From NCBI GenBank assembly GCA_025617745.1, contig CM046853.1, forward strand, positions 34,542,625 through 34,606,624: a stretch of 64,000 nucleotides of DNA, read 5' to 3'. Below the pieces are notes generated by a model. It was not told the DNA's origin, did not search any database, and worked only from the letters and a program-made list of their open reading frames with translations. Position 1 is the stretch's first letter. The number at the start of each line of letters is the position of its first letter. Source of the DNA: Heliocidaris erythrogramma. Taxonomy: Eukaryota; Echinodermata; Echinoidea; Camarodonta; Echinometridae. Made by a program: the position numbers and the translations under genes. This document shows, piece by piece, positions 32,187 through 51,605 of this stretch.

Positions 32187-32633
32187 TCATAAAGACACTC
32201 TCTTTGACTTCTTTCCAGCAGTCCTGACACCCTTAGCTGATTTTACTTTGGAAGGTACCTTGGCACTCTGGGCACCGCTCCTGGTTTTCTGTCTCGGCTT
32301 TCCTTCTGGAGTGGCTTTACTCTCAGTCTGTTTACTCTTCTTCTCTTTGCTAGCAGTTTCTTTTTTCTCCGTTTTCCTTTTCTTTGTTGCAGTTGTTAAC
32401 CTCCGCTCTGACACGTCACCAGAATCACCGACCTGCTGCTTCTTCTTCGACTTGGGGGCAGCTGAAGACTTGGTCATCTTCCTCTTAGTAGGACCTTTCT
32501 GTTCTTGTTTTATGGCAGGTTTCCTCGACCTAGACGGTGTCTTTGATGTTGCTTTTGAAGTCGATGCCTTCTTTGGAAGAGCAATCTTTGGGGCGGGAGG
32601 CTGGGATTCTTTCAGTCTTTCCCACTCAGCATC
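32187..32633 (-). CDS. NIFK: NIFK-like exon 5 with stop (residues 198-345)
   Basis: Acceptor GGAAG|GATGC, phase 0; it runs to TGA at 32189-32187. [13 protein letters not shown] is followed by about 130 residues of Lys, Ser, Thr, Ala and Pro, a disordered nucleolar-type tail. The acceptor has a weak pyrimidine tract. The plus strand is also open here but is only the mirror of this biased codon use. Confidence 0.85.
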   Translation of the reverse strand, partial: DAEWERLKESQPPAPKIALPKKASTSKATSKTPSRSRKPAIKQEQKGPTKRKMTKSSAAPKSKKKQQVGDSGDVSERRLTTATKKRKTEKKETASKEKKSKQTESKATPEGKPRQKTRSGAQSAKVPSKVKSAKGVRTAGKKSKRVSL

Positions 32634-35600
32634 CTTCCAAAAATAAACATGAAATAAATCAATAGTATGGAAGTCTCACTTTTCAAGCCATAGAAATAAC
32701 ATCAGTGGAATCTTTATGACTGCATCATTTACATGCCAAACTATTAAAGGGAGCAGGTTGAGAGTTTTATTCAAATGTTCTTTCTGATCACCGGAAGGGA
32801 AATAAGAGAATATCCAGCTATTGTAATATAGCGTTGGATCAGTAAAAAGTTACTTCAACTCAGTTCATGATACAGCAAGTAAGGCTTATATTACAAGTTC
32901 TTTAGTGTTCCAGCATCAGAAAATGTAATATCGTTCATTCAACCGTCACATGTGAGAGGTGAAATTGAATATTTGTCTCATCATTTGCAGGAACCACTTT
33001 CTGTATCAAATTTTGTTTAATGAAAAACAGTAAAAGAACAATCAGAATCCTTTATAGTTAAGGACGTAATATATTCTTGGATTCTCACAGGGAACTTAAC
33101 ACCACTCAGGTATTTAAACGATAATAAATGTTATGTAGGTCACTGAAATTAAATTTCACTTATAGGTCTTTAGTATGTAGTGCATTAATTTCATGAAGAC
33201 TTCAACAAGATTACCCCCCACCCCCGTGAGGTAAGTTTCTCAACAACAAAAAATGTACTCTTGAAGCAAAATGAATTTCCTAAAAGGTACAGGGTTTGAA
33301 TTAGGGTTGCAATTGGGTTAAGTTTCAGATTAGGATTAACCCCTACCATGCCGTGGGCGGCAAATCCCGCCCAAACATTTGAGTGTTGAACATTTTTTCG
33401 GCTCAGAATGGCTTGAAAATTCTTCCTCATACAGAAACCTGAGCCTTCAATATGTTGTTTATTCCTATGCAATAAATCTTTGCCTAGTTTGCTCAAGAAA
33501 AAACTCATTAAAAGTTAAGTTAACTCTTGAAAATTTATTTTTGACAATTGCTCACAAATCTGGCGGCATGGAAGGGGTTAAGCTTGGGCATACAATGTAG
33601 TGTTTGGTCCAGGGTTAAAGTTAGGACTTCAGTAAGTGTAGGATACTGACAACAAAGAAATTGTCACTGGAGTATGTGTTGTATGACAGAGTATCTTCTA
33701 TTTGTCCTGAATAGTATGTTTTCTCACATATGTCAAATATGGTAAATTAATTCTTAAGACATAATTGACATTGACAGCAATTATTTTAAACTTTGGAAAT
33801 TCATCTCAAACACTACAAGCGATTTTATTTTATTCAGGTCCAGTATTAAACATGACAGCTTAATTGATTTTTTTTTCTTGGGGGGGGGGGGGGGGGGGAG
33901 GGCACGTATGATGTAAAAAAATAACTGCTGGAGTATCTGTGTGCAATATGCCAGAGTTCATGAACACAGGACTTGGTAGAAGCCTAGAGCAATTGTCCAC
34001 GGAGCAAATGTTGGAGCACCAGATACTCACCACACCCTCAATCTTGAAGTCGATGCCAAGCTTCTCAAGCTTCTTCTGTTTCTTGTTGAGACCAGCCACT
34101 CTTCGCTTCTGACTTTCCAAAATATGGTCTTTCCCGCTCTGCAACAAGCCATTGTTCCTGGCTGCTGCAATCTCTCTTCTTCGGGGTCTTTTGAAGTGAC
34201 GGAAGCAACCCTTGAAGGTGTCGGCATGGAGCTTCTCCTTAGGCACATAAAAACCTAGGTTGTGCAAAGAAAAGGTGAAAAAAGAAATATTTAGAGAGAT
34301 ATTTGCAGGAAATCCAACTGTGATAGCAAGCTGCTTTGAGGAAAAAAATCAGAGAAATTGATTGGTGAAAGCTGAAACGAAATCTGATAAACAATCCCTT
34401 GTAAAAAAGTACCATAGTATCCATGGTAATTTGACAGTAATTTGACCAAATTACAGTCAAATCATGGTAATTTGATCTAGTACTCTGCATGATTTGATGT
34501 TAATTTGGTCAAATTACTGTCAAATTACCATGGGTACTATGGTACTTTTTTTACAAGGGATGGGAAAGTTTTTAGTTTAAAGATCACATTGCAAGAAAAT
34601 CACCAATATGGCAATTAATGTATCACTAGAAACTGGGAAGCTTACAGATGGCAATCGTATAAGTTTTATGTCAACTGCGTATCTGATGATTATGAAAACA
34701 ACATAAATAAAAGCTCTTCTAAGCATCTGGAATATCCGAGGATTCGCCAGAAATATAGCGATGTTTTGATGTCGTCACACAAGGGGTCGATCCTGCTTAA
34801 GCAGACGTCGTCCTATAATGAATGAACGTAATTGCAATGCAATTATTTATCAAATTATAAAGAGTTTGGTATATTTAACATGACCTTATTTCACACCATT
34901 CTAAAAGGGAAAGTGAACTGATTCTGATAACTAAAACCGTTTGATAGTAAATACACAGGAGAAGGGTCAATGATCAATGAAATAAACCCCACTTTCAAAT
35001 TGAAAAGCCCTCCGAATAATATCACAGATTGTATTCGTTCCCTCTTGAAACGCCGAACATGCCCCGGTGCAAGCAGCTGAAAATACAATGGCGTCTTATT
35101 TTGTTTACAAGTGACTGATTCTTTTATTTTTTTAACGCTGCATTTTTCATCAAAATAATACCATACACGAAGTTAAGAGTGAGGCAACAGACTAACATTA
35201 AGACTGACGCTAGTCAAGCAAGAGAAATAAGTGAAGAGGAGATGACAAAACAGGCACTGAAAAATGTGTAAGATGTTATGGGACATCGTCTGCTTAGACA
35301 GGACTGGTCCTTCGTGTGTCGTCACACATCTCAGCAGCGTTCAAGGAGCTCTTCAGCTGCTATATCAGGGGCTGTATTTTACCGTTTTATAATTGATAAT
35401 AATCATTAATTCAAATGTTTCGAAGCGTTGAATTTGGATAACCTTGTATAATTTATGCCATCTATGCAATAAGTATTAAGCCAATATTTATTTTGATGGA
35501 ATTTTCTTGCAATGTGATCTTTAAGAGTTGATCTAAACATAGCCGAGATCAGAATGTTCATTGCCACTAACTTCACACAGTTATCAACAAACTGAAAATC

Positions 35601-38600
35601 TTTTAGAGGAGAATGAAACCCTGGGGAAAAAAAATTTTAAGGAAAGAGAGGATACAAGAGAAGCAATTTAAAAAAAGTTCCATCAAAATCGGTCACATAA
35701 TTATGAAAGTTTGAAAAGTCTCAATTTACTTTCTATGGCGATCCTCAAATTGGCAATGTTGCTTCAAAGTGACAGATTTAGCAGTACAACCTCTCCATGT
35801 TTTGTACACAAAATTTCATATTTTCCCCATTATCTCTCAAGGTGCAGCTTGTTTCCTAAGCTCATGGGAAAATGTTTTGACAGAACATATGTTGAGTTCA
35901 CGAAAAGACAAGCAGCATCTTTAGAGATAATGGAGAAAATATGAAATTTTCTGTACAAAACATATTGAGAGTTGTACTAAACAACACAAAAAGTAAGTTC
36001 CCCCTAAAGCAAAATGGCATAACATTTTAACGAAAAGGTTTTAAGCAAAATAACTTGGCAGGAGTGTTCCTACACTTATTGACTAACTTCTGTGTGAAAA
36101 TGAGATTGATCTGTCAAGTCATGCATGAGTGAGCACACATTAAAGGGAAAATTGTCACTTTTCAAAAGTCACAGGAGTCGTATTTTATGCCATATTATTA
36201 ACAGTGAATTTTAGCATTTCTTGCTTAATTTTAAAGTGTGCTCACTCAACCAGCCAAAAAATTACCTCTTGTGTTTACACTATTGACAACTCATTTTGGT
36301 AGCAATATCTGATGTTAATTTTTTCAATAATCTGAATGGATTTTGCCATTTCAAAGTTAAGAGGGTTGAACATTGCTACTTTCCACTAAAATTGTGCTCA
36401 CCAAACCGTGCAAAAACACGAAAAGTGTCAGGATAGGTGCGAAGGGGTCAAACGATGGATGATAAACAACTACAGCACTTGAACAAAAACCAGAAACAGA
36501 ATTCGCCAAAATAACCCCCCAAAATGGCTCTTGTGACTTTTGAAAAGTGACAATTTTGCCTTGAATGTGTGCTCACTCATGCATGACTCGACGATCAATT
36601 TCATTTTCACACAGAACTTAGTCAATAAGTGTAGGAACACTCTGACCAAGTTATTCTGTTCGAAACCTTTTCGTTAAAAAGTTATGCCATTTTGATTTAG
36701 GGGGAACTTACTTTTTGTGTTGTGTTTATATTAAGCCTGAGTCGAATCGATTGGTTAGCCGGTGTTCGATCGAAGACATCGAATCCCGAATTCGTTTTGG
36801 CAAATCCGGTGCATCGATTTGTAGTCCGCCAGATTTTTGACTACCGTAGCCACCATGAAAAGAGCAAATAAAAAAAGAAACTCCGTAACGTACAGCATAT
36901 ATACTAGCAGAGAACGTGAAGGCGACTTCAAACTGTTGGCTAACTTTCGCTAATGCGCTCGCGGAGGACGTCGCGCTTTACCTGTGCTTTCTCTATGGAA
37001 AAATCGTTTCGTCGATACGAACTGAAGTTTACGATAATATTCTTGCACTCTCTCTGCATTGTCAATTTGACAATTGTATAATTGAACATGATAAATACGG
37101 GCATGAGTACCAGTGTTCCTACTTAATTCGCAATAACTAATATCACACTCTCATCAAATTGGCAATTACTTCTGAATGAAGATCAAGCTGAATGAAGTCG
37201 GGTCATGAGCGACGAAAAGTTTATTTCGTATTGTTTTTTTTTTTTTGCATCGAACAAACGTGTTCCATTCAGCTCTCCAAAGACAAAGTAAGATTATTAA
37301 TTCGTTGAATTTGAATCATTGTCGGGTGTGGCGACAATGAGCATCGCTTCGTGCGACACTAAAGTGATATTTTGACTAGCCATACGGACTAGAAACTTAA
37401 GATTTTGGCTAATCCGCTGTGATTTTTACTAGCCATTGGCAGCGAGAGCCCATACATATGCCCGCGATGCCAGCGGACCAGTCACCGGTGCATGGTGCAT
37501 GCACTGCGTGCAACTGTGTGCAACTCTGTTTTCACCGCCCATCATTTATCGATGCACCGGTATTCGATCGAATCAAAGCCGTCGAATCCCGGATTATGAA
37601 TTATTCGATATGACTCAGGCTTAGTTTATATACCTGTCATTTTGAAGCAACATTGCCAATTTGAGGATCATAATACTGTACATGCATATCTTACTGGTCG
37701 CAAAAACCTCATTCAGAACTTTGACAACTAGCAGGTCCGCACTTCTCCTCTAATAAAAGGAGAGTACTGTTTCTACTGAAACAATGCAAAATTCTTTTTA
37801 CACACTGCACATGAATAGAATCCTAAAGGAAAAAAAAATGATCCTGCATCAGAATAAGTAATATCGTTCATTCAACTGTCACATGTGAGAGGTGAAATTG
37901 AATATTAGTCTCATCATCTACAGGAATCATTCCGTTCTATTTTGCAGTATGAATCTCTTAACATATACAAAGAAAAAGAGTCCATTAGAAGTGAATATTG
38001 CAAAATACCTACAAACAAGCCATTTCAAGAAAACATACTCTTTCATACTCACATTTTAGAAGCTTCTGATACATAAGGTAGTTGTGCATTGTCTCAGCCA
38101 CTACCTTGGCGACTTCATTGTATTCAAACTCGATATAAGCGTAGCCCTTTGACTTGCCACTCTGAAAAATAGAAAAACATCAACATACCGTTTAGCAAGC
38201 AGACAGAATAATAAGAAGGAAACCTAAGGTATGATGGATTATGTCCCCATCACTCTGTCATTTAATATAAAATGCATACAATTTCAATCACTGCAATAAA
38301 TCTAAATGAAGCTACCATTCAGTAAAATAAAGGTACATTCCACTTTGACACTAGAACTTCTAGAAGCCTTCCCATAAGCTGTGACCACTAGAATAAGTGA
38401 CATGAAGCAAGTTATACGATCATTATGATGTAAAACAAGAGCCCCAGGGGGCACGACGCTCACCTGAGGTGGATCTATTCACATCTGGTGCATGTTCTCT
38501 CCAGCACATGAACAACTTTCATTCTTCATCTATAGAGGTATCTCTATACACAATACCAAGTCTGAGCTTCCTACCAAGTTCGGTTAAATTCCAATCATGG

Positions 38601-41600
38601 GTTTTGGAGAAGAAGCTGAAAATGTAAAAAGTTTATGGATGGCGGACAACTGGCCTCCCCCCACCCCCCCCCCCCCCCTCCAGTATGTTACCCCCACAGA
38701 CCCCCTATAGGGCCACCCAGAAAAAAATCTCCATACACAATACCAAGTCTAAGCTATTCCTGGTTCTGGAGAAGATGTTTGAAATTTACATAGCTTTTAT
38801 ACTTGGGGGCCCTCCCCCTGGGCCCCCCTGGGGGCCACATGTACCATTTTAGCACCTTTGGATCCCCTACCCCTAAGGATGATTCCTACCAAGTTTGGTT
38901 GAATTCCGATCATGTGTTTTGGAGAAGATCAGAATGTACATTTTGCCTGGCAGCGCCCCCCCCCTCCAGTATGTTACCCCCACAGGGCCCCTATATGGCC
39001 ACTGAGAGAAATTTCATGAACAACATTCATTCTTCATCTATAGAGGTATCTCCATACAAAATACCAAGTCTGAGCTATGCCTGGTTCTGGAGAAGAAGAT
39101 GTTTGAAATTTACATAGCTTTTACAATTGGGGGCCCTCCCCCTGGGCCCCCCTGGGCCCCCCTGGGGGCCACATGTACCATTTTAGCAACTTTGGGTCCC
39201 CTACCCCTAAGGATGATTCCTACCAAGTTTGGTTGAATTCCGATCATGGGTTTTGGAGAAGAAGATGAAAATGTAAAAAGTTAACGGACGACGCACGACG
39301 GACGACGGACAAATTTCCATCGCAATAGCTCACTCGAGCCATAGGCTCAGGTGAGCTAAAAATGCATATATTTGAATGCAATCTACATAATGCCTTGCGA
39401 TTTATGAGAGATATTTAAGATGCACAAGCAACTAGAACCATGTTATGCGACTTGGGTTCCCGTAAACTTTCAAAGGAAACCTTTGATACTTCAACTTTAA
39501 GTCAGCTAAAGGCATCGGGACCATTTGCATGGTTTGAATGCAATTACATGTAATCTCATCTTATCCATCTAGGAAGTGAATTGTCTCTGCCACATGATGA
39601 TCACCTTTTTACTTCTGCTGAGCCGTAACCGCTTGATGTTGCCAAACTGTGAGAAGAACTTTTTCATCTGAGGTTCATAGAATCCATGAGGAATGTGGGA
39701 GACGTAGATCACGCCGGAGTCCGGATCCTCTTCGTGGACGTCACGTTTCTGCAGGAAACATAACATTTGGATAAAAATGCAAAAGTTTTACAACATGAAT
39801 AACTTAATCAAATGTTATTTTTGTAACGGTAATTATAATTTGAAAAAGAAAATTCACTGCTTTGGATATTTTTTTTTCTATCCTCAAGAAATGTAAACTA
39901 AAAATTACTGTATTGTCTATTAATAATTGTGAATACAAGATGAAATTGAAATGTTGATATAAAGAAAAATAAAGCAAGCATCCTGCCAAAAGAATGGAAC
40001 TAGGCTTGACTAGCACTTATGCTAACTTCTAGTTCCAACTAGAAATGTGCATTGCTGGTGCCGCGCATTGCGAAATGTATCCCCCGGCACTGGCAGCGAT
40101 TTGAAGGAGGGACAAAGACCCTCCCCCATCCCCTCCCTCAAACAAAAGGATGGTGTAGAAATTGCCGCCAGTGGCCCGGAATATTGTCAACACTAGGAGC
40201 AGCATTACCAAAACGATTTGTGCAGATTAGACTATAATGCATTTTTATAGAAAATTCGGAAGAAATATGACCTCAGAGCGCACATAAGCCATCCACTAAA
40301 ATATGAACTTTGATCCTATGAAAGACGGAACACTAGAGGCAGCATCACCAAAAACTGTAGAGGTGTAATCTATAATGGACCTACATACAAAATCTGAAAG
40401 AAATGAGTTAACAAATGTGTCCTCCAGAATGCATGCAACGAAAATATGACATTTGACCCTAACAACAACCTGAATATGACATTTGACTGTATAGAAAGTG
40501 GTACAGTGGGGGTAGCATCAGCAAACAATTTAGATGTGTAGGTTTCACTAAGACACATCTTCATATAAAATTTGAAAGAAATGTGTTGAGAGATATACCA
40601 AGATACATCTCCATACAAAATTTGAAAGAAATCCATCAAGAAATGTGGCCTGCAGAGTGCACTCACGCCATGCCCTGAAGTATGACCTTTGACCCTATAA
40701 AAGACGAAACACTGGTGGCAGCATCACCAAAAACTATAGGTTTTTAGATTACACCAAGAGACACCTTCATGCAAAATTTGAACGAAATCCGTCAAGAAAT
40801 GCAGAAGTAAGAGTGCAAGAAATGGAAAATGACCTTTGACCCTATAAAGGACGGAACAATGAGGGCAGCATCACCAAAAATTAAATATGTGTAGATTATA
40901 CCAAGATACATCTCCATACAAAATTTGAAAGAAATCCATCAAGAAATGTGGCCTGCAGAGTGCACTCACGCCATGCCCTGAAGTATGACCTTTGACCCTT
41001 CGACCCTTTGACACCTTCATGCAAAATTTGAACGAAATCCGTCAAGAAATGCAGAAGAGTGCAAGAAATGGAAAAATGACCTTTGACCCAATAAAGGACG
41101 GAACAATGAGGGCAGCATCACCAAAAATTAAATATGTGTAGATTATACCAAGATACATCTCCATACAAAATTTGAAAGAAATCCATCAAGAAATGTGGCC
41201 TGCAGAGTGCACTCACGCCATGCCCTGAAGTATGACCTTTGACCCTTCGACCCTTTGACACCTTCATGCAAAATTTGAACGAAATCCGTCAAGAAATGCA
41301 GAAGAGTGCAAGAAATGGAAAAATGACCTTTGACCCAATAAAGGACGGAACAATGAGGGCAGCTCACCAAAAATTAAACATGTGTAGATTATACCAAGAT
41401 GCATCTCCATACAAAATTTGAACAAAATCCGTTGAGAAATGTGACCGCTAGAGCGCACACAAACTATCCCCCAAAATATGGCCTTTTACCCTATAAAAGA
41501 CGGAACACTGGGGGCAGCATCACCAGAAACTATAGGGGTCCAGATTTTACCAAGAGACACCTTCATACAAAATTTGAACAAAATCCGTTGAGAAATGTGA

Positions 41601-44600
41601 CCGCTAGAGCGCACACAAACTATCCCCCAAAATATGGCCTTTTACCCTATAAAAGACGGAACACTGGGGGCAGCATCACCAGAAACTATAGGGGTCCAGA
41701 TTTTACCAAGATACACGTCCACAGGAAGTCTGAAAGAAATTCGTCAAGAAATGTGACCGCTAGAGCGCACACAAGAATGTGACGCGGCGGCGGCGGCGAA
41801 ACGCTGCTGAATCCAAAGTATCCTCCCGCATACTGCCGGGGGATACAATTAGCAACTTTATCTTAGTATAAATAGTGCAACTGTATGACATTCAGTTAAG
41901 TGCAATCACATACTTGATTTTTCATTGATCTACAAACATAAATTATTGTAAATCCATTTATATTCATTTCATGTAGAAAGTCCTTTTTTTAAAATATGTA
42001 TTCACGTAACATGATTAATCTTTATATTAATGATTATACTGTCATTTATGTGATGTGTTGTTAATAAACCCAAACTCAAACGCAATCTCAAACTTCAAAG
42101 AGACATGGTTGCCATGTTAAAGAAAAAGTTGAGGTCTGGTTAAGGTGAAAAATAGTGTGTGCTTTCTCAGTTTCTCACTCTTTTAGTCCCATTTCTACAG
42201 ATAGTTGCAGACTTTGAAGTTTGAACCAAATTTTGATTTCATATCTTTGTCTAGTCTCATGTGGGCCTACTAAAATCTGTGTTAAGTGCTGTTAATAGTT
42301 TGTGATTGTCAGCAAGATTTATTTAGTCAACTGTTATCAAATTTTGATGATTCTGAAACCTGAAAATAACTACTTTTAATTTATTTACTATATTTTACAT
42401 CCACCAATCAGGATATCCAACATAACTACTACATGTAGGCACCTTTTTTTTCACTTCACAATGCTATTGCCTGACTGGGCAGTACCCAGTTTCTCTTGAA
42501 GTTTAAATTTATCAAGTCAGTTCAGTCTCCAACTGAGTTTAAGTGCCAAGTACATACATACCGGTACACATTTTTTTAAACAGTCCCTGATACCATTCTG
42601 GGCAACATAACGTCCAAAAGTAAAAGAATAGTTAGAACCTCACTACAGCCAAACTTGGGACACATTATGAATTTAAATATATATATATATACGTTATTTA
42701 AAAAAAATAATAGAAATTCCTGCATCAGAGAATAAATAATATCGTTCATTCAACTGTCACATGTGAGAGGTGAAATTGAATATTTGTCTCATCATTTGCA
42801 GGCATCATTTTGTTGTATCCTACAGTATGAATTTGTATTGCAAAAAATACAGATGTTCATTTATGATATGAACAAACAACATGAATATGTGGTTTATGGC
42901 ACCAATGTATGCGCAGACGTAGATGACAGCTTCTTTTGCAGGAGGAAGTTTGAAAACACACATACTAGTATTGGCGATAGAGGTGCACGACCAATAGATG
43001 TAAAGGTATGGGAGACTGTCTCCATTGTGAGAGACTTTTGTTCAAGATTTTTGGTAGCATGTTTGGGAGACTTCTCCCATTATGGAAACCAATTTTCTTT
43101 GTTCTTTGTTCACTCAAATTGAAAATGTGTTAGGCAGACTGCACATGAAAAATCACCAATTTTGACTGTCTACTTTAGAAAATCACCCTCTCCTTTCGTG
43201 TTCATAACGTTGTTTTATTTGATGATCCACACACAAAACAAATGAGCTTATGACCTCAGAGAGGCCAAAATTTGGCGGGGGGGGGTAATTCCATTGTTGT
43301 TGGTGACTATTGTCCTATTGTAAGCCAAGTCTCCAATATTGTGAGACTGCCTCAAGTGGAAGAGAGTCTCCTGATTGGGTCATGCACCCCTACCGATTGG
43401 GTCATCTATTGACAGCACAAATATAAATATATTTTTCCTTTAACATGGACTAGATCTATTCAAGATTTAAAGGGCAGGTTTGGTCCCATAATAGCCTCTT
43501 GTCGAGGCCCTGGCGCTGTTGAAATCCTTGGCGATATGGAGCCAGAAACACCGAGGCGCTTACGCCGAGGGCCTCTTGACACCCGATTTGAATTTCTTTT
43601 GTATTTCATTGTTTTGACGAATATTCCGACCAAATTTTGGTCGGTGAAAATCAACCAATAAGCGTGAGCTACCATGACGTAATGTTAAATATTCATGACT
43701 CGACTGCATGCTATTTCTTACATATTAATTAATCGCAGCCCAAAATGGCGTTCAACGTTTCTTCCACGACGAGTGATGATGATATTAAATTTGTAAGGGC
43801 TTAGAATATGCCGCTAGAAGGTTGAAGATTGACAGATTCAAAGATTTGCAAGTTGATGCAATCAAATCTGCACTTAAAGGACAAGATGTTTTTGTGAATC
43901 TGCCTACTGGCTATGGAAAAAGTGTTATTTTTCACGCGCTACCGCTCTGTGCTGACCTCCATGGGCCAGGGATGGAGAGTGAGACAGCTGCTTAATTCGC
44001 GAGGGCCTAGGCCAGGCGGATCCCCCGGGGCCTTGCCGGGCAGTGAAGTTGCTGCTAACTCCTTGGTTACATCAGAATTGATGGGAGATGTATCTATTGT
44101 TGAACGGTGAATTTTATTGCCCATTCTTCATTATTTGTAAATATATGATGATCTCTTGAGAAATATGTACATTTGTCTTATTTCAAATTACCATGGTTTG
44201 TAAGCTAGAGATCGAATTCTTCATAATGTGCTTGTCTGTGAATGTATTTTGAGCAAGACATTTACGTAATCCCCCCCCCAAAAAAAAATAATAGACTAGT
44301 CCAGCACTGAAGTAAGAAATCCTTGAGATTTCATTGGCCAATTTGCTGGGCGATCGCCGCGGTTATGTAACTATTCACGTTTTCATGCATAATTCAGTAG
44401 GAAATCGTGCCTCATGAATATATAATTCAGGTCGGGTGTCAAGAGGCCCTCGGCGCAAGCGCCTCGGTCTTTCTGGCGAGCGAAGCGAGCCAGAAATTTT
44501 GCCTCCATATCGCCAAGGATTTCAACAGCGCCAGGGCCTCGACAAGAGGCTAGTCCCATAATAACTTACTTTCATTTCAACAGATGCAGAAAAATCAAAC

Positions 44601-47600
44601 AGGTAAAATGTTTGAGCATTGGAGGTAAAAAACATTCAAGGAAAATAAAAAAACTGACAAAAAAACTAATCATGTTTTTTTTTAATGATAAACTATGGAA
44701 ACCTATGAAAATCAATGGACACATTGGCAACTTAGTTTGTGACATAATTCAATTGCTCTGTATATATGTATTTTGATACCAATATTAATTTAACCACATG
44801 AATTTCATTTCCTCATGCCTTTGCCAGGGTTATATTTAGTGCATGCATGCACCTCTACAAAGACTATATTCATAATAGACCCCCCTTGTATATTTGGGTA
44901 AAGGTATGATGAAATTAAGCCTGAGTCATATCGAATATTTCATAAACCGGGATTCAACGGCTTTGATTCGATCGAATACCGGTTAATCGATAAATGATGT
45001 GCGGTGAAAACAGAGTTGCACACAGCTGCACGCAGTGCATGCACCATGCACCGGTGACCGGTCCGCTGGCATCGCGGGCATATGTATGGGCTCTCGCTGC
45101 TCGAAATTAACGATAGCCCGCTAGATGTATGACATTTGCTCCGGCGGCAATTGCTCCTGCGACAAATGCTCCTAAAAATACGACAATTGCTCCGCGACAA
45201 TTGCTCCGCGATAATTGCTCCTGCGACAATTGCTCCGTCGACATTTGCTCCTGCGATAATTGCTCCGACGACATTTGCTCCTGCGACAATTGCTCCGTCG
45301 ACATTTGCTCCTGCGACAATTGCTCCGTCGAAATTTGCTCCTGCGACAATTGCTCCGTCGATATTTGCTCCGATCGAGCGACAATTGCTCCGCGACAACT
45401 GCTCCGTCGATAGAAATGCAAATATGCGACAATTGCCCCTGCGACAATTGCTCCGCGACATTTGCTCCGATCGAGCGACAATTGCTCCGTCGATAAAATG
45501 AATATATGAGACAATTGCGACAATTGTTTCTGCAACAATTGTTTTGTCGACATTTGCTCCGATCGAGCGACAATTACCTACTCCGCGACAACTGCTCCGT
45601 CGATAATAATGAGTATATGCGACAATTGCTCCGCCGATAAAAATGAATATGCGACAATTGCTCCCCGACAATAAACTCAGTAAATAGAAATAAATATTTG
45701 CTCCTCGACAATTGCTCCGTCGACATTTGCTCCGGCGACATTAGCTCCGGCGGAAAGCACTCGATCCGCCGACATTTGTTTCATTCGAGCGACAATTCCT
45801 TCGCAACATTAGCTCCGTCAAATAAAATGAATATGTGACAATATCATTGCTCCGCAACAATTGCTCATGCGACAACTTGTCCGCCGACATCTGTTCCGTC
45901 GGCCGTCGTTAATGCTTATGTATGTGACAATTGCTCCAACGACAACCTTATATAAAATCCTCATCAAAAGCGAACACAACGAATTCAGAACAATAGCTGT
46001 TGTTGGTGTTCATAGGTTCAATTTAATATTGTAAACAGTCAGAAAAAACTGAGTTATACAAATGTATAAGAGTTATTCTTGTTTTGAGATTCATGATGAA
46101 TCTTACGTATTTATTAATGCTTCGTATCCAAACTATAAACTTTTGATATGATTGTTTTTTTCAGACTTTCATAAATGATTTTTATTGAATACCACAATCT
46201 TGTGTCAGCACTATGAAAACAACGAGTAGAAAATTGTATGACTGAGATACGCCCGTTTGCTAAAAAGAAAAATACAAATTTTATAAACTGGACTGTATCA
46301 CTCTGTTATCTAAAAGTTCATTTCATCCTTTTTGCATTCAACTTTGTAGAATATGAACAACTGTTTTTAGTTTGTTTTGAAAGTTTAGTTGTGTCTCCTT
46401 GTTTGTTTTCATTTTTATCTTAAAATAAAGCGTAAATTTTTTGTGACATCTGTCTGAATATGCTTGTCTTACGGTTATTTGTAAAGCGAAATTAATTACA
46501 GAGTACAAAGAAACATATGCTACGACCCAGGAGGCTGTGGGAGACTTGAAAATTAATGATATTTATGGCCATAGAATGTGATATTTGGGTAAAAAGTGTG
46601 ATAATTGGACCAGAAAATGTCATTTTCGGGCAAAACACCTCACCCCCCCCCCCCCCCCCCCGAACATGGATTCTTTAAAAACATCTAAATGCAAAGAGAA
46701 AATGTGCACACTAAAGGTTAAAGGACTAGATCAAAATATATTGTACACTCACCATCTTCACTTTTTTTGTGCGGGGGGGGGGGGGGGTGCCCAGGGCTGA
46801 TTGTCAGAGCCCCCCATTCGCCCCTGTCTAGCCATAAATACATTTTAAAAATAATCGCTTGTAGAGGTGGAAGAAGGGTGAATGGCGTGTAAAAAATATA
46901 CCCCCAATTTTTAAAGAAGAAATAATAATGGAAAAGAGAAAGGAAAACATGGAAAAAGAGGAATGACAATGAAGGGAAAACCTGAACGTGGCTGTCAAGA
47001 CAAACCCACAAGGGTTTTTATACAGCAACCAGGTTCCTATTTTTATTGTCAGTCTTTTTTATGTTTTAATAATTACATGCAATTTTAATGACTATGCCCG
47101 TCTAAACACACTAAACTATATCATAATTTTCTTGCATGTTAATGTTAATGATACTCTTTTATATGTGAATCTGAATAAAGCTGAATTGAAAAGAATTGAA
47201 TTTAATTTAATTTAAAGCGTTGCTCGCTTCGCTCGCTTGATTTCACTATCTTAACCTATGCCGGTTATATTTATATTATCAAGAAAGGGAATAGGTTTGC
47301 ATCTTGTCTTTTATCCAATATTTATGCTTAATTCTTTAACTCATAAAGTGATAGTTATGTCTGCAAGGATTCGAGCAGCAAGTTGACCTAAAATAGATGA
47401 ATTTTCAGGACATGACCGCCTGTGACCATTAGCCTATTCATATCATCACACCCTGATCATACTCTCTGTGTGAACGGAAGATGCCGATAAATGTACGTTA
47501 CTAAAATCACGAGAAGGGATTGTAACAATACACTTAAACCTGTTCTTAGTATTTAAAAAAAAAAAAATCAATATTTGCCCTCTTATAAAATCTAGAAACA

Positions 47601-50600
47601 AGACGTTTTCGATTAGCAATCATTTTTATTCCAGCAGCGGATGCCCGCATATCATAATATTTTTCGCTGCGCTCACTGAAAAGCTAGAGTGAAACTTATT
47701 GGGAAGGCAAACAAATTGGGCATGCAACGGGAGTTGACGAAATGATACTTTATCCCCAAGAGAGTGCGTTTTCCTTGCTCGCAATGTTTAGAAACAGTGT
47801 GGTTTTGGACAGCAAACATTTGCAACAGCGAAGTATGTAATATTTGGCAGTGAGGTAACCAAATATACCATTTAAATATCTTATAAGTCCAGAGTGTATT
47901 TTGACAAAAAAACGAGACTTCTTTTAAGGCAAGATATGGTAATTTTTGGCTCGCTCGCAAAATAAATAAAAGTATGTGTCTTGGGGTGTGTGGGTGAGGG
48001 GTGTGTATAGTCAAATTAATGTGAGCAAGAAATTTCGGCAAAATATTTTGTTCATTCCCCATCCCACTCCTCGAAACGGATTTACGCCAGTGTCATCGTA
48101 CTCTCGTGGAATAAGCAGTTAGAGGTACGGTAGTAATTGTCTCGACATACATGTATTTCGAGATATTCGAGATATCTCGAGGCAATGATATTGTCGCATA
48201 TTCATTTTCTTCGACGGAGCTAATGTCGCGGACGAATTGTCGCTCAAATGGAGCAAATGTTGGCGGAGCAATTGTCGATGAGCAAATGTCGCATATTCCT
48301 TTTATCTACCATGTCTACCGAGTTTATTGTCGAGGAGCAATTGTCGCATATTCATTTTTAACGACTGAACAATAATCATATTTTGGAGCAAATGTCGGCG
48401 GAGCAATTGTCGCAGGAGCAATTGTCGCATTTCTATCGACGGAGCAGTCAGTTGTCGCGGAGCATTTGTCGCTCGATCATGTCGATCGGAGCAAATGTTG
48501 ACGGAGCAATTGTCGCAGGAGCAATTGTCGCATATAAGCATTTCTGTCGACGGAGCAATTGTCGCTCGATCGGAGCAAATGTCGACGGAGCAATTGTCGC
48601 AGGAGCAAATGTCGACGGAGCAATTGTCGCAGGAGCAAATGTCGTCGGAGCAATTGTCGCAGGAGCAAATGTCACCGGAGCAATTATCGCAGGAGCAAAT
48701 GTCGACGGAGCAATTGTCGCAGGAGCAATTATCGCGGAGCAATTGTCGCGGAGCAATTGTCGTATTTTTAGGAGCATTTGTCGCAGGAGCAATTGCCGCC
48801 GGAGCAAATGTTGGTTCCCCAGCCCGCTAGCCAATGGCTAGTAAAAATCACAGCGGACGAGCCAAAATCTTAAGTTTCTAGTCCGTATGGCTAGCCAAAA
48901 TATCACTAGTGTCGCACGAAGCGATGCTCATTGTCGACACACCCGACAATGATTCAAATTCAAAGAATTAATAATCTTACTTTGTCTTTGGAGAGCTGAA
49001 TGGAACACGTTTGTTCGATGCCAAAAAAAAAAAACAATACGAAATAAACTTTTCGTCGCTCAATATATATAGACTCGACTTCATTCAGCTTCAGAGATCA
49101 TTCAGAAGTAATTGCCAATTTGATGAGAGTGTGATATTAGTTACTGCGAATTAAGTAGGAACACTCGTACTCATGCCCGTATTTATCATGTTCAATTATA
49201 CAATTGTCAAATTGACAATGCAGAGAGAGTGCAAGAAAATTATCGTAAACTTCAGTTCGTAACGACAAAACGATTTTTCCATAGAGAAAGCACAGGTAAA
49301 GCGCGACGTCCTCCGCGAGCGAATTAGCGAAAGTTAGCCAACAGTTTGAACTTTGAAGTCGCCTTCACGTTCTCTGCTAGTATATATGCTGTACGTTACG
49401 GAGTTTCTTTTTTTATTTGCTCTTTTCATGGTGGCTACGGTAGTCAAAAATCTGGCGGACTACAAATCGATGCACCGAATTTGCCAAAACGTATTCGGGA
49501 TTCGATGTCTTTGATCGAACACCGGCTAACCAATCGATTCGACTCAGGCTTAGATGAAATCATATTTTTTTTAATGGGAAATTTATAATAGACCTAATAA
49601 AGGAATAAAATCACAAAATCAGAATGGAGGTTCTATAGTATTTGTTTGGCAATTTTCAGTGTTCCTATACTAAAGCTTTTCTTGTCATTAAAAAATTAAT
49701 AACTTTCTTTTTAGTAGATCTAGAATCTAGAATCTTGTCCAATTTTTCTCAAACATTTTTTGATGGCCGTTTGCCTTAATTTTTCTGCTTCTACTAGACC
49801 CATAATTGACTGAAAGCAACTTATTTTGGGACCATGCTATATTTTACTAATGTTAGACTCATTTCTAAAACGAAGACTTCATAAACTTGAAACAGTGTTG
49901 AAAGTAGATCTAGACTCACCCACGTAACCATCACTACATGTATGCGGGGCTGTGTCAATTTCGTCAGAGAAAATAATTTGAGAAAATACTTCCTTCTATA
50001 CTTTAGAACGATACATTTAATACCAGATTCTTTGATAGGATCTTTATCATTATGACCAAGTGAAAATGTCAGGCTGTTTTTGGCCGGCAATCTTGCTCCT
50101 CTCCAGCACACATGTGCTAGAGATCACACACTTGCTATGGGAGGCAATTGCTCACGGTATAAAGGTACAATAACCTCGCATAAGTGTGAGTGCTCTATTA
50201 AAGACTCTACACTTAATTATTCCATTACTTTGAATTCCATTTTTTTCCAGACAACTACAAGGTCAGTGTCAGGAGAGAAATTTAACTATCGTTCATGTTT
50301 TTCTTGCGTTTTGCACTAACCGAAAGGTCTGTCATTTTTTGGTTTTCTTTTACTTATCTCCTTCCCTGTTCTGACTCTGACCCTGGCCCTATTTTTACAT
50401 ACATGTAAAGACAAGTTAGACAACCAACCTAGACTACAAACCATCAAACTTTTTCTTACAAGCTTCATCACGTTTAACTTCAACTTCATGCAGTCTGCGG
50501 TCCAACATCATTAATAACACTGTCCCACAATTGCCAAACACAATGTCCTCAAACAACTCTCCACATGCTCAACACTCTACAGCACAGTATAAATTTGCCA

Positions 50601-51605
50601 TGGTTTATGACATGCCAAACATTCGAATTTTCTAGAATGAAGCATGATGTAGGCTAGTTCTTGTCCCTCTAAATCCTGCATTGCTTATAGTATAGTCATG
50701 ATAGTGACAGTTCATGCGATTCTTACTCTTGACTTTAGCCTTACACATATGCGAGGTAGGGGAACCCGAGGTAGTATGGTGGTGTGACCATATTTCGCGC
50801 ATGACCTAAGTTCGCGCACAGGGCAATATCTAAAAAACTACAAAAGATTTCGAAAATCTGATAGCGCTATTAGATAGAGGAAGCTAAAATTACATATGGA
50901 CTATATTTTCTTTTAAGTTGGGTGAGAAATTATGAAGATATTGACAAAATATCGGCAATTTTGCTACTTTTTGCGTCAGTTTCCGAAAAATATGAAGTTA
51001 CCGACAACGGTCCAAAAATCCTCATTTTGATAGATGTCATCAAAGTTGTAGGTAAAACGTGATACCAAATGATTGTATGATATTTTGTCTTACAAATGAT
51101 GCAATTATCTTCCCTTTGCTGGACCGCTACGTTGGATAACTTAGATGTTAATTTACGTGCGCGAACTTAGGTCTCGTGGTTTTTATGCCCTTTTTTTTTT
51201 CTTCAGTGTTTTGCGATCCGACACTGGGTTTTGAGATCGCGATATTTCCGAAATTCTTCGTCGATTAATGTTCTTGTTGAATCAAGTTTTAGTCCAGAAT
51301 TTTGCTTTCCGTTTGGTATAAAACTTTCTAAATAAATTATTGTAGAATATGAGAAATCAAGTATCGAATATCACATTTCTAATAAAAATTTGAATGTGCG
51401 CGAAATATGGTCACCCCATCATACTGTACTGTACTGTAGTGTACATGATTCGGGCATGTCGGGGCGGGGATTTAATGTCAATGAGCCTTACCATTCGTTT
51501 CAATTGTCCCATCTTTATGCTGAATGTACGCTGCATTTCAGCGTCAAGAGCTTTAAGACTCGCTTCTCCCATTCCATGTCTTCTTCTTGGTTTGATTGAT
51601 GCCAT
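32187..51605 (-). CDS. NIFK: NIFK/MKI67IP-like nucleolar RRM protein (5 coding exons, 345 aa)
   Basis: Minus-strand exons 51605-51492, 39748-39605, 38161-38053, 34254-34031 and 32633-32187 join in frame to 345 residues (human NIFK 293). One RRM spans about 50-125, with RNP2-like VIYVSHI (51-57) and RNP1 KGYAYIEF (91-98). [13 protein letters not shown] and [14 protein letters not shown] are close to human SRSKRTGNSKGYA and DVAKIVAETMNNYL. After the RRM come [14 protein letters not shown], the basic [14 protein letters not shown] block (human KKERLLRKKLAKKGIDY) and a long Lys/Ser/Thr-rich tail. The family binds pre-rRNA in the nucleolus, works in large-subunit maturation and binds the Ki-67 FHA domain in vertebrates; I cannot place the FHA-binding phosphosite here. 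Exon 1 is the least certain part. Intron 1 is about 11.7 kb. Three introns carry snoRNA-like copies. It converges with the transporter gene and diverges from the MDH1B gene. Confidence 0.88.
32908..32993 (-). ncRNA. C/D-box snoRNA-like sequence, copy C (NIFK intron 4)
   Basis: An 86-nt unit with C box ATGATGA (32984-32978) and D box CTGA (32919-32916). The terminal stem is longer: TTCC and GCA pair with TGC and GGAA around one T-T mismatch. The core matches copies A and B except for a few bases (GACGG for GACAG). It sits about 275 bp before exon 5. Confidence 0.75.
33337..33581. mobile_element. MITE with TTAACCCCTACCATGCCG ends (NIFK intron 4)
   Basis: TTAACCCCTACCATGCCG is mirrored by CGGCATGGAAGGGGTTAA. 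The inside is AT-rich. Confidence 0.8.
34031..34254 (-). CDS. NIFK: NIFK-like exon 4 (residues 123-197)
   Basis: Acceptor CCTAG|GTTTT completes a Cys codon split from exon 3; donor GTGTG|GTGAG. It encodes [14 protein letters not shown] and a very basic helix with [13 protein letters not shown]. Confidence 0.92.
34395..34560. mobile_element. Palindromic MITE with TCCCTTGTAAAAAAGTACCA ends (NIFK intron 3)
   Basis: The arms are almost perfect complements over about 80 bp each, including TAATTTGACAGTAATTTGAC. The loop is AATTTGATCTAGTACTC. Confidence 0.9.
34577..35524. mobile_element. 0.95-kb element with TTAAAGATCACATTGC ends
   Basis: TTAAAGATCACATTGCAAGA is mirrored by TCTTGCAATGTGATCTTTAA. 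Inner arms near 34773-34815 and 35279-35330 pair through GATGTCGTCACACAAGG and CTGCTTAAGCAGACG-type sequence. Confidence 0.75.
35732..37675. mobile_element. Inverted-repeat element interrupted by a hAT-like insertion
   Basis: CGATCCTCAAATTGGCAATG..GCTTCAAA at 35738 is mirrored at 37632-37672. The inner arms 35983-36180 and 36530-36724 are complementary over about 190 bp (AACACAAAAAGTAAGTTCCC at the outer edge). The hAT-like element at 36732 sits between an inner and an outer arm. Outer limits are uncertain. Confidence 0.65.
36732..37623. mobile_element. hAT-like non-autonomous element 1 (892 bp)
   Basis: The ends are TAAGCCTGAGTCGAATCGA and TCGATATGACTCAGGCTTA. GTTTATAT is duplicated exactly on both sides (36724-36731, 37624-37631), an 8-bp target duplication as in hAT elements. 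No transposase. Its sequence recurs, reversed, as the shell of 44916-49552. Confidence 0.9.
37843..37924 (-). ncRNA. C/D-box snoRNA-like sequence, copy B (NIFK intron 3)
   Basis: An 82-nt unit with C box ATGATGA (37917-37911) and D box CTGA (37852-37849). The terminal stem is CCTGTA with TGCAGG, where a G-U pair replaces the G-C of copy A. The core from ATTCAATTTCACC to GAACGATATTA is the same as in copy A, while flanks differ. A change that keeps pairing in the stem supports a folded RNA. Confidence 0.75.
38053..38161 (-). CDS. NIFK: NIFK-like exon 3 (residues 87-122)
   Basis: Acceptor TTTCAG|AGTGG, donor AAAAT|GTGAG. It carries RNP1 KGYAYIEF and [18 protein letters not shown], the most conserved part of the protein. 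Confidence 0.94.
38431..39360. repeat. Repeat ending in CTCAGGTGAGC (NIFK intron 2)
   Basis: GACGCTCACCTGAGG near the start and CTCAGGTGAGCTAAAA at the end are inverted. Inside, a block of about 290 bp (CATACACAATACCAAGTC.. through GGGGGCC) is present two to three times. GACGACGGAC units precede the end. Confidence 0.75.
39605..39748 (-). CDS. NIFK: NIFK-like exon 2 (residues 39-86)
   Basis: Acceptor CTGCAG|AAACG, donor AAAAAG|GTGAT, phase 0 on both sides. It encodes the first half of the RRM, with GVIYVSHIP and [18 protein letters not shown] against human GVIYVRHLP and YFSQFGTVTRFRLSRSK. Confidence 0.93.
40077..41851. repeat. Tandem-repeat element with TGTATCCCCCGGCA ends (NIFK intron 1)
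   Basis: TGTATCCCCCGGCACTGGCAG is mirrored by ATACTGCCGGGGGATACAA. Most of the inside is degenerate repeats of about 170-190 bp with GACCTTTGACCC, GACGGAACA and GGCAGCATCACCA in order. A 320-bp double unit is repeated almost exactly (about 40590-40990 and 40910-41240). A GCGGCGGCGGC run is near the right end. Confidence 0.8.
42035..42095 (+). mobile_element. LINE 3' tail
   Basis: GTTGTTAATAAACCCAAACT is followed by CAAACGCAATCTCAAAC, decayed A-rich repeats at a truncated LINE end. Confidence 0.5.
42719..42802 (-). ncRNA. C/D-box snoRNA-like sequence, copy A (NIFK intron 1)
   Basis: Read on the minus strand, the 84-nt unit starts CCTGCA, then C box ATGATGA (42795-42789). It ends with D box CTGA (42728-42725) directly followed by TGCAGG, which pairs fully with the start as a 6-bp terminal stem. 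It lies in an intron in host orientation. Its middle holds AATTTCACCTCT, complementary to the AGAGGTGAAATT stretch of 18S rRNA as I remember it. The D' and C' boxes are not clear, so the target is inference. Copies B and C share the core. Confidence 0.75.
42980..43391. mobile_element. MITE-like unit with AGGTGCACGACC ends (NIFK intron 1)
   Basis: AGGTGCACGACCAATAGATG is mirrored by ATTGGGTCATGCACCCCT. Several GGGAGACT..TCTCC segments lie inside. Confidence 0.6.
43492..44552. mobile_element. MULE-like element with ~100-bp inverted ends and a captured helicase fragment
   Basis: The ends begin TAGCCTCTTGTCGAGGCCC and are complementary for about 100 bp; the right arm has about 25 extra bases (CTGGCTCGCTTCGCTCGCC). 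GTCCCATAA is duplicated exactly at 43483-43491 and 44553-44561. A 9-bp duplication with long inverted ends is the pattern of Mutator-like elements. There is no transposase. The middle holds a RecQ-like fragment. Confidence 0.85.
43745..43995 (+). pseudogene. RecQ-like helicase N-terminal fragment inside the MULE-like element
   Basis: From ATG 43745 the frame reads [19 protein letters not shown], meets TAG at 43802, and continues one base off as [20 protein letters not shown]. The Walker A region [10 protein letters not shown] then VIFHALPL follows, and TAA at 43993. This is the motif 0 and motif I part of a RecQ-type ATPase. Everything after about motif I is missing. Frameshift and truncation make it a pseudogene. 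Confidence 0.8.
45131..45950 (+). repeat. 15-bp tandem array, left arm
   Basis: Units alternate CAATTGCTCC and CATTTGCTCC with CTGCGA, GTCGA or GCGA spacers. The array is regular to about 45400 and more broken after. Each unit contains the CAATTG palindrome or a one-base variant. Confidence 0.9.
45951..48154. other. Loop of the foldback element
   Basis: AT-rich sequence with a C run (46645-46662), a G run (46775-46788) and a LINE-type tail at about 47020-47217. No transposase is recognised in any frame, so the element looks non-autonomous. Confidence 0.6.
47020..47217 (+). mobile_element. LINE 3' tail in the foldback loop
   Basis: GTGAATCTGAATAAAGCTGA is followed by ATTGAAAAGAATTGAATTTA and similar units, the typical end of a truncated LINE. 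Confidence 0.6.
48155..48815 (-). repeat. 15-bp tandem array, right arm
   Basis: The reverse complement of the left arm: GGAGCAATTGTCGCA and GGAGCAAATGTCGAC units, most regular from 48560 to 48750. Confidence 0.9.
49821..50280 (-). repeat. Dispersed coding-like repeat, copy 1 (pair with 56569-56960)
   Basis: On the minus strand it reads [12 protein letters not shown] and DKDPIKESG; the other copy reads [12 protein letters not shown] and DKDPIEESG. Surrounding bases such as CACACTTGCTATGGGAGGCA match too. Both copies lie in intron 1 of a gene, in opposite orientation. The family is unknown to me. Confidence 0.6.
50434..50601 (-). pseudogene. Short Cys-rich coding-like fragment (NIFK intron 1)
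   Basis: From ATG 50601 the frame reads [10 protein letters not shown], a TGA, then [15 protein letters not shown] and [20 protein letters not shown] to TAG. The composition is protein-like, with several Cys and a charged helix. It lies close to the preceding repeat and may belong to the same element. No family is recognised. Confidence 0.35.
50773..51425. mobile_element. MITE with GACCATATTTCGCGC ends (NIFK intron 1)
   Basis: GTGTGACCATATTTCGCGC is mirrored by GCGCGAAATATGGTCACC, and inner ACCTAAGTTCGCGCAC by GTGCGCGAACTTAGGT. It ends about 66 bp from the predicted NIFK exon 1 donor. Confidence 0.8.
51492..51605 (-). CDS. NIFK: NIFK-like exon 1 (residues 1-38, predicted)
   Basis: ATG at 51605 opens 38 codons ending at ATG|GTAAGG in phase 0, exactly the phase exon 2 needs. 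The peptide is basic ([16 protein letters not shown]..) and ends in MGQLKRM, which continues into KRDVHEED of exon 2. That suits the charged N-terminus of the family, but there is no strong similarity to rely on. No better start was seen upstream of exon 2. A MITE ends about 66 bp past the donor. Confidence 0.6.

Follow-up and report, generated by a model that had tools for sequence, protein, structure and literature searches.

Box C/D small nucleolar RNAs (snoRNAs) that guide 2'-O-methylation of 18S ribosomal RNA (rRNA) are recognized by their C and D boxes, size, terminal stem, location in introns and an antisense element placed before a D-type box. The same properties were found in three units, here called copies A, B and C, on the minus strand of a 64,000-nucleotide (nt) stretch of DNA from the sea urchin Heliocidaris erythrogramma (GCA_025617745.1, contig CM046853.1, forward-strand positions 34,542,625 to 34,606,624; "the window"), within a homologue of the ribosome-biogenesis gene NIFK. 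We consider it moderately likely that they are paralogous intron-encoded box C/D snoRNA genes of this homologue, carrying a D'-linked guide for helix 23 of 18S rRNA. The arrangement resembles that of U14, copies of which reportedly lie in several introns of hsc70: likewise several copies of one C/D snoRNA occupy different introns of one gene, although host and guide sequence differ. In contrast to described 18S guides, the units reach no Rfam threshold and have as their predicted target the helix-23 loop (human 955-966), between known neighbouring sites. The nearest human sites are Am1031 (U59/SNORD59; yeast snR54) and Gm867 (SNORD98). Pairings of neighbouring sites with their snoRNAs are given in excerpts of PMC3511168 and PMC8393311. 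The units and their boxes, in window coordinates, are:

42719 to 42802, minus strand, C/D-box snoRNA copy A, in intron 1 of the NIFK homologue provided that exon 1 is correctly placed
42789 to 42795, minus strand, C box AUGAUGA of copy A
42725 to 42728, minus strand, D box CUGA of copy A
37843 to 37924, minus strand, C/D-box snoRNA copy B, in intron 3 of the NIFK homologue
37911 to 37917, minus strand, C box AUGAUGA of copy B
37849 to 37852, minus strand, D box CUGA of copy B
32908 to 32993, minus strand, C/D-box snoRNA copy C, in intron 4 of the NIFK homologue
32978 to 32984, minus strand, C box AUGAUGA of copy C
32916 to 32919, minus strand, D box CUGA of copy C

A preliminary description of the window had reported three minus-strand units with ATGATGA, CTGA and a stem, and these were seen where it had placed them. 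Each has a C box (RUGAUGA) near its 5' end, a D box (CUGA) near its 3' end and a terminal stem of 8 (A), 7 (B) or 8 (C) pairs with at most one mismatch. The snoRNA prediction that it had proposed for the minus strand was performed on both strands with a fixed rule (RTGATGA; CTGA ending 54 to 95 nt from the start of the C box; at least six terminal pairs, G-U allowed, with at most one mismatch) and returned exactly three candidates, A, B and C. Among 150 first-order Markov sequences of the same length the mean was 0.16 candidates and the maximum 2, none of them holding three. Under a stricter rule with a gap-free stem, A and B were found and C was missed because of its stem mismatch. The stems themselves are CCUGCA/UGCAGG in A, UCCUGUA/UGCAGGA in B (a one-sided C-to-U change giving a G-U pair) and GUUCCUGCA/UGCUGGAAC in C (a U.U mismatch and a longer outer stem). 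It had also been argued that the stem is kept by different bases in each copy and is therefore a selected fold; the base differences are real, but none of the six shared pairs has changed on both sides, so that the terminal stem alone is weak evidence for selection and covariation across the three copies is uninformative.

Stronger evidence for selection comes from the contrast between a near-invariant core and diverged flanks. From the C box to 8 nt (A) or 6 nt (B, C) before the D box, the aligned copies have two variable columns only (A/T directly after the C box, and an A/G difference in copy C), whereas the segment preceding the D box varies in sequence and length. BLAST comparison of the 1.5-kb flanks gave short matches only (14 to 29 nt), and the sole collinear one, which is 29 nt long (79%) and lies immediately before A and B, points to an old intragenic duplication rather than retroposition. 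Many copies outside NIFK would have made the units a mobile repeat, according to the preliminary description. Copy B gave three matches in its own genome (1.06 Gb, 26 contigs; the count is a lower bound), all in this gene and in one orientation, and on this result a mobile or dispersed repeat was rejected. No further copy was found within the window. A pattern of C box, guide and D box occurs at 13 places genome-wide: A, B and C, nine places that by eye belong to one dispersed repeat, and one singleton. The repeat, which contains TGATGAATGCCCTTTTCACCTCTGATAAATGCC-like sequence (own-genome C2, C4, C10, C12 and C13), fits the snoRNA pattern by chance. A second copy of the guide elsewhere is unsupported, as the singleton (own-genome C3) shares no more than the pattern itself.

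Assignment to the C/D class was examined with permissive Rfam scans of 141-nt stretches. Best scores reached 25.2 bits for A, 25.3 for B and 24.7 for C, where the threshold was 45 in each case. C/D snoRNA families accounted for 33 of 37 matches at A, all 16 at B and all 26 at C, and most of these matches span the whole unit. In a single control intron stretch, 0 of 4 matches were to snoRNAs. The architecture is thus typical of the C/D class yet belongs to no curated Rfam family, and A, B and C apparently form a new, undescribed family of intron-encoded C/D snoRNAs.

The candidate guide is an invariant 12-mer, AAUUUCACCUCU, identical in the three copies and perfectly complementary to AGAGGUGAAAUU in the helix-23 loop of 18S. 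The preliminary description did not mention this complementarity. The antisense elements and best D' candidates are:

42766 to 42777, minus strand, antisense element AAUUUCACCUCU of A, complementary to 18S AGAGGUGAAAUU
37888 to 37899, minus strand, antisense element of B
32955 to 32966, minus strand, antisense element of C
42764 to 42767 (A), 37886 to 37889 (B) and 32953 to 32956 (C), minus strand, D'-like CUCA, read from the sequence, putative assignment

This 12-base-pair (bp) duplex is the best duplex for A, B and C in each of five eukaryotic ribosomal DNA (rDNA) contigs (L003 to L007). These contigs stand among bacterial genomes, under the names Blastococcus, Coleofasciculus, Flavobacteriales, Brenneria and Planomonospora, and are presumably contamination. 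In the single partial 18S copy of the animal's own genome the match extends to 16 bp, UGUGAGAGGUGAAAUU, with a duplex energy of -24.4 kcal/mol compared with -15.8 kcal/mol for 12 bp. This copy (L012 3005-4431, own-genome C17) is the only one found that covers the target; it terminates in a stretch of N and shows numerous indels where the sequence is conserved. The rDNA arrays seem to be unassembled in this genome. The second conserved block, UUGAAUGAACGAUAUUA, can form 10 plain pairs with the 18S of L003, L006 and L007, a stretch that differs in the own copy, and this pairing was given no weight. The target search covered 18S. The 28S sequence found in the own genome consists of a lone fragment and short pieces of the 5' end, bases 5001-8000 of L007 are N, and the 25S comparison, comprising only ∼500 real bases, was not used. 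Nine short places (41 to 49 bases; own-genome C4, C8, C9, C10, C15 and C21) match the same 5' 28S stretch at 92 to 95% and look like a dispersed 28S-derived fragment. Scans of viral contigs gave two matches, neither with an rRNA match, and further scans gave zero. A literature search with the sequence strings together with snoRNA returned no paper.

Guide AAUUUCACCUCU directly precedes CUCA, and 3 nt farther on lies a C'-like GUGACAG (GUGACGG in C). An alternative D' candidate, CACA, lies two bases beyond CUCA. A D-box guide is unlikely, given the variation among copies in the segment before box D. If CUCA is taken as D', the fifth pair falls on the G of GGU-G-AAA, which is position 904 of the L007 18S if that sequence starts as in yeast. 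The numbering assumes this start and equal spacing around the target in yeast and human. Since yeast Am974 equals human Am1031, an offset of 57 (excerpt of PMC11542601), position 904 corresponds to human 18S G961. If CACA is the D' box, the predicted target becomes the equivalent of human G959 (yeast G902). Human G961 is presumably G693 of Escherichia coli, in the 690 loop. The loop is named helix 23b, at the E site, in an excerpt of PMC6316650. Members of the class are stable RNAs bound by fibrillarin, Nop56, Nop58 and 15.5K. As is typical of them, each expressed unit would probably be freed when exonucleases trim the excised intron back to a terminal stem held by the C/D proteins. Within the assembled ribonucleoprotein, the D'-linked guide AAUUUCACCU(CU) would pair with the conserved helix-23 loop, and fibrillarin would be directed by the fifth-nucleotide rule to the ribose of the G961 (yeast G904) equivalent if D' is CUCA, or of the G959 (yeast G902) equivalent if it is CACA. 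The small RNA probably helps to mark or shape the helix-23 loop.

Human and yeast are not known to carry a methylation site there. In the excerpted table of PMC11542601, which includes human and yeast sites only where they are common with plants, no plant 18S site lies between Arabidopsis 812 and 978, an interval spanning the helix-23 loop. The human 18S regions with sites absent from the fly that are named in an excerpt of PMC13228274 (99-436, 644-867 and 1383-1668) do not cover 955-966. No paper was found among snoRNA literature for Gm961, Gm904, 18S-G961, Gm959 or Gm902, or among literature joining Gm867, Am1031 and 18S, and no passage on G904 was found in PMC4513230.

The host gene was assembled from the following exons:

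51492 to 51605, minus strand, tentative exon 1 of the NIFK homologue, ATG to phase-0 GT donor
39605 to 39748, minus strand, exon 2, first half of the RRM, splice ends by eye
38053 to 38161, minus strand, exon 3, second half of the RRM, splice ends by eye
34031 to 34254, minus strand, exon 4, splice ends by eye
32187 to 32633, minus strand, probable last exon, basic C-terminal tail to the stop, from position, frame and composition

Joined translations of exons 2 to 4 read as an RRM protein with a conserved C-terminal extension and match human NIFK. Against chains of solved structures they matched fission-yeast C1827.05c (E = 3e-34), the NIFK chain 8fkp_SH (2e-29) and ribosome biogenesis protein 15. 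The exons thus match both NIFK, the MKI67 FHA domain-interacting nucleolar phosphoprotein, and its yeast counterpart, ribosome biogenesis protein 15, and by this likeness the host is a homologue of NIFK, a ribosome-biogenesis protein. The probable last exon gave no Pfam match. Exon 1 was one of three places left after filtering on composition and phase-0 donors, and 51605-51492 was picked by its likeness to NIFK N termini, which is not proof. Copies B and C lie between coding pieces and are intronic whatever exon 1 is; for copy A, which is upstream of exon 2, an intronic position depends on there being an exon farther upstream. With the tentative exon 1 accepted, the copies fall into introns 1 (A), 3 (B) and 4 (C). 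The preliminary description of a C/D-box snoRNA triplicated in a NIFK homologue therefore agrees with the boxes, the permissive Rfam matches and the host match; its placement of all three in host orientation and in different introns holds for the orientation and for B and C, while the intron of A hangs on the tentative exon 1. Among the listed papers that combine snoRNA, NIFK and intron, none describes a snoRNA in NIFK as judged by title and the opening of the abstract, human NIFK introns being outside the scope of that search.

Several points weigh against a D'-guided RNA. The D' and C' boxes are degenerate (CUCA has 3 of 4 letters of CUGA, and GUGACAG 4 of 7 of RUGAUGA), the guide adjoins a D' box only if CUCA or CACA is accepted, and the target base changes with the choice between them. 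In the own 18S the duplex extends across CUCA, which would then be occluded as a D' box, and a predicted internal hairpin (AUUCAA...UUGAAU) overlaps the guide in C (minimum-energy fold) and in A (centroid fold), not in B. Whole-RNA folding is unremarkable (z = -1.45 for A, -1.81 for B and -1.03 for C), and no family reaches its Rfam gathering threshold anywhere in the window. The next exon is ∼3.0 kb from A and ∼3.6 kb from B, farther than is expected of intronic C/D snoRNAs. The five rDNA contigs were retrieved with a pattern containing the 12-mer, so that its presence in them is by construction and the informative part is that neither A, B nor C forms a better duplex with any of them. A complete 18S is found in L007 only; the other four contigs are cut or masked, the 18S of L004 being partly N. 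Of 5000 dinucleotide-shuffled cores compared with the full L007 18S, 39 reached 12 bp and none reached 16 bp, but the test was post hoc, the 12-bp rate of 0.8% is modest, and the observed 16 bp comes from the own 18S, where the match may rest on sequencing error in a partial, indel-rich copy.

Some of these points would fit a genuine C/D snoRNA that pairs with the helix-23 loop and acts, much as U14 or U3 do, as a chaperone of pre-18S folding or processing, without methylating the loop. We consider this unlikely, yet it is a live rival because the own-18S duplex crosses the D' candidate and the hairpin in A and C overlaps the guide. The poor D'/C' boxes also favour a chaperone, as does the UUGAAUGAACGAUAUUA block, a second conserved block unexplained by one D' guide. 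The guide nevertheless adjoins a D'-like box, the D'-C' spacing is short, and duplexes of 10 to 21 bp are formed by ordinary guides as well. The absence of ribose methylation near the site among the plant sites in the excerpt of PMC11542601 is a further point for a chaperone. It is quite unlikely that the snoRNA has another real target (28S, a small nuclear RNA or an mRNA) or none and that the 18S match arose by chance. The shuffles that reach 12 bp leave room for this, as does a target search centred on 18S, with 28S sequence found only as own-genome fragments and masked in L007; against it, the 18S duplex is identical in A, B and C, is their best in five rDNA contigs, sits at the D'-like box and reaches 16 bp in the own 18S. 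The three similar copies might also be silent, unexpressed duplicates of an intronic repeat or of a retroposed snoRNA, but we regard this as very improbable: the genome-wide matches found are confined to one gene and one orientation, no A tail was seen in the flanks at the copy ends (target-site duplications were outside this check), the core is kept while the flanks have diverged, and the ∼29 nt of A/B likeness beyond the element is what intragenic duplication predicts.

Other features of the window were also recorded. Inverted arms at 45132-45392 and 48551-48811, 98% complementary over 261 nt, 3.2 kb apart and made of GACAATTGCTCC-type minisatellite, resemble a foldback element or one with terminal inverted repeats, situated in the proposed intron 1 of NIFK. 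Tandem arrays with units of 147, 156 and 247 bp occupy 40682-41774, between the tentative exon 1 and exon 2. A long open frame at 58412-59788 (plus strand) matches the C-terminal domain of lactate/malate dehydrogenase at 22 bits, compared with a Pfam cut-off of 22.6; it is perhaps an MDH1B-like gene.

By sequence, A, B and C appear to be a real and apparently undescribed C/D snoRNA, in a host for which no record was found and with a sharp target prediction. Tentatively, and as a possibility rather than an expectation, this snoRNA may install a lineage-specific 2'-O-methyl group on a conserved guanosine of helix 23 (human G961), the base against which mRNA position -3 is stacked in the scanning complex. 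In human 48S complexes the -3 purine of the mRNA stacks on 18S G961 (excerpt of PMC11746136), and in Toxoplasma gondii emetine stacks on the equivalent base, beside the E-site tRNA position (excerpt of PMC13419753); the guanosine thus borders both the E site and the emetine pocket. If the main reading is right, it would add a C/D snoRNA family and a host gene, with a one-base prediction at a highly conserved nucleotide; the methylation proposal would further describe a natural ribosome variant at the reader of Kozak position -3, for which three copies within a single ribosome-biogenesis gene would secure the guide dosage.

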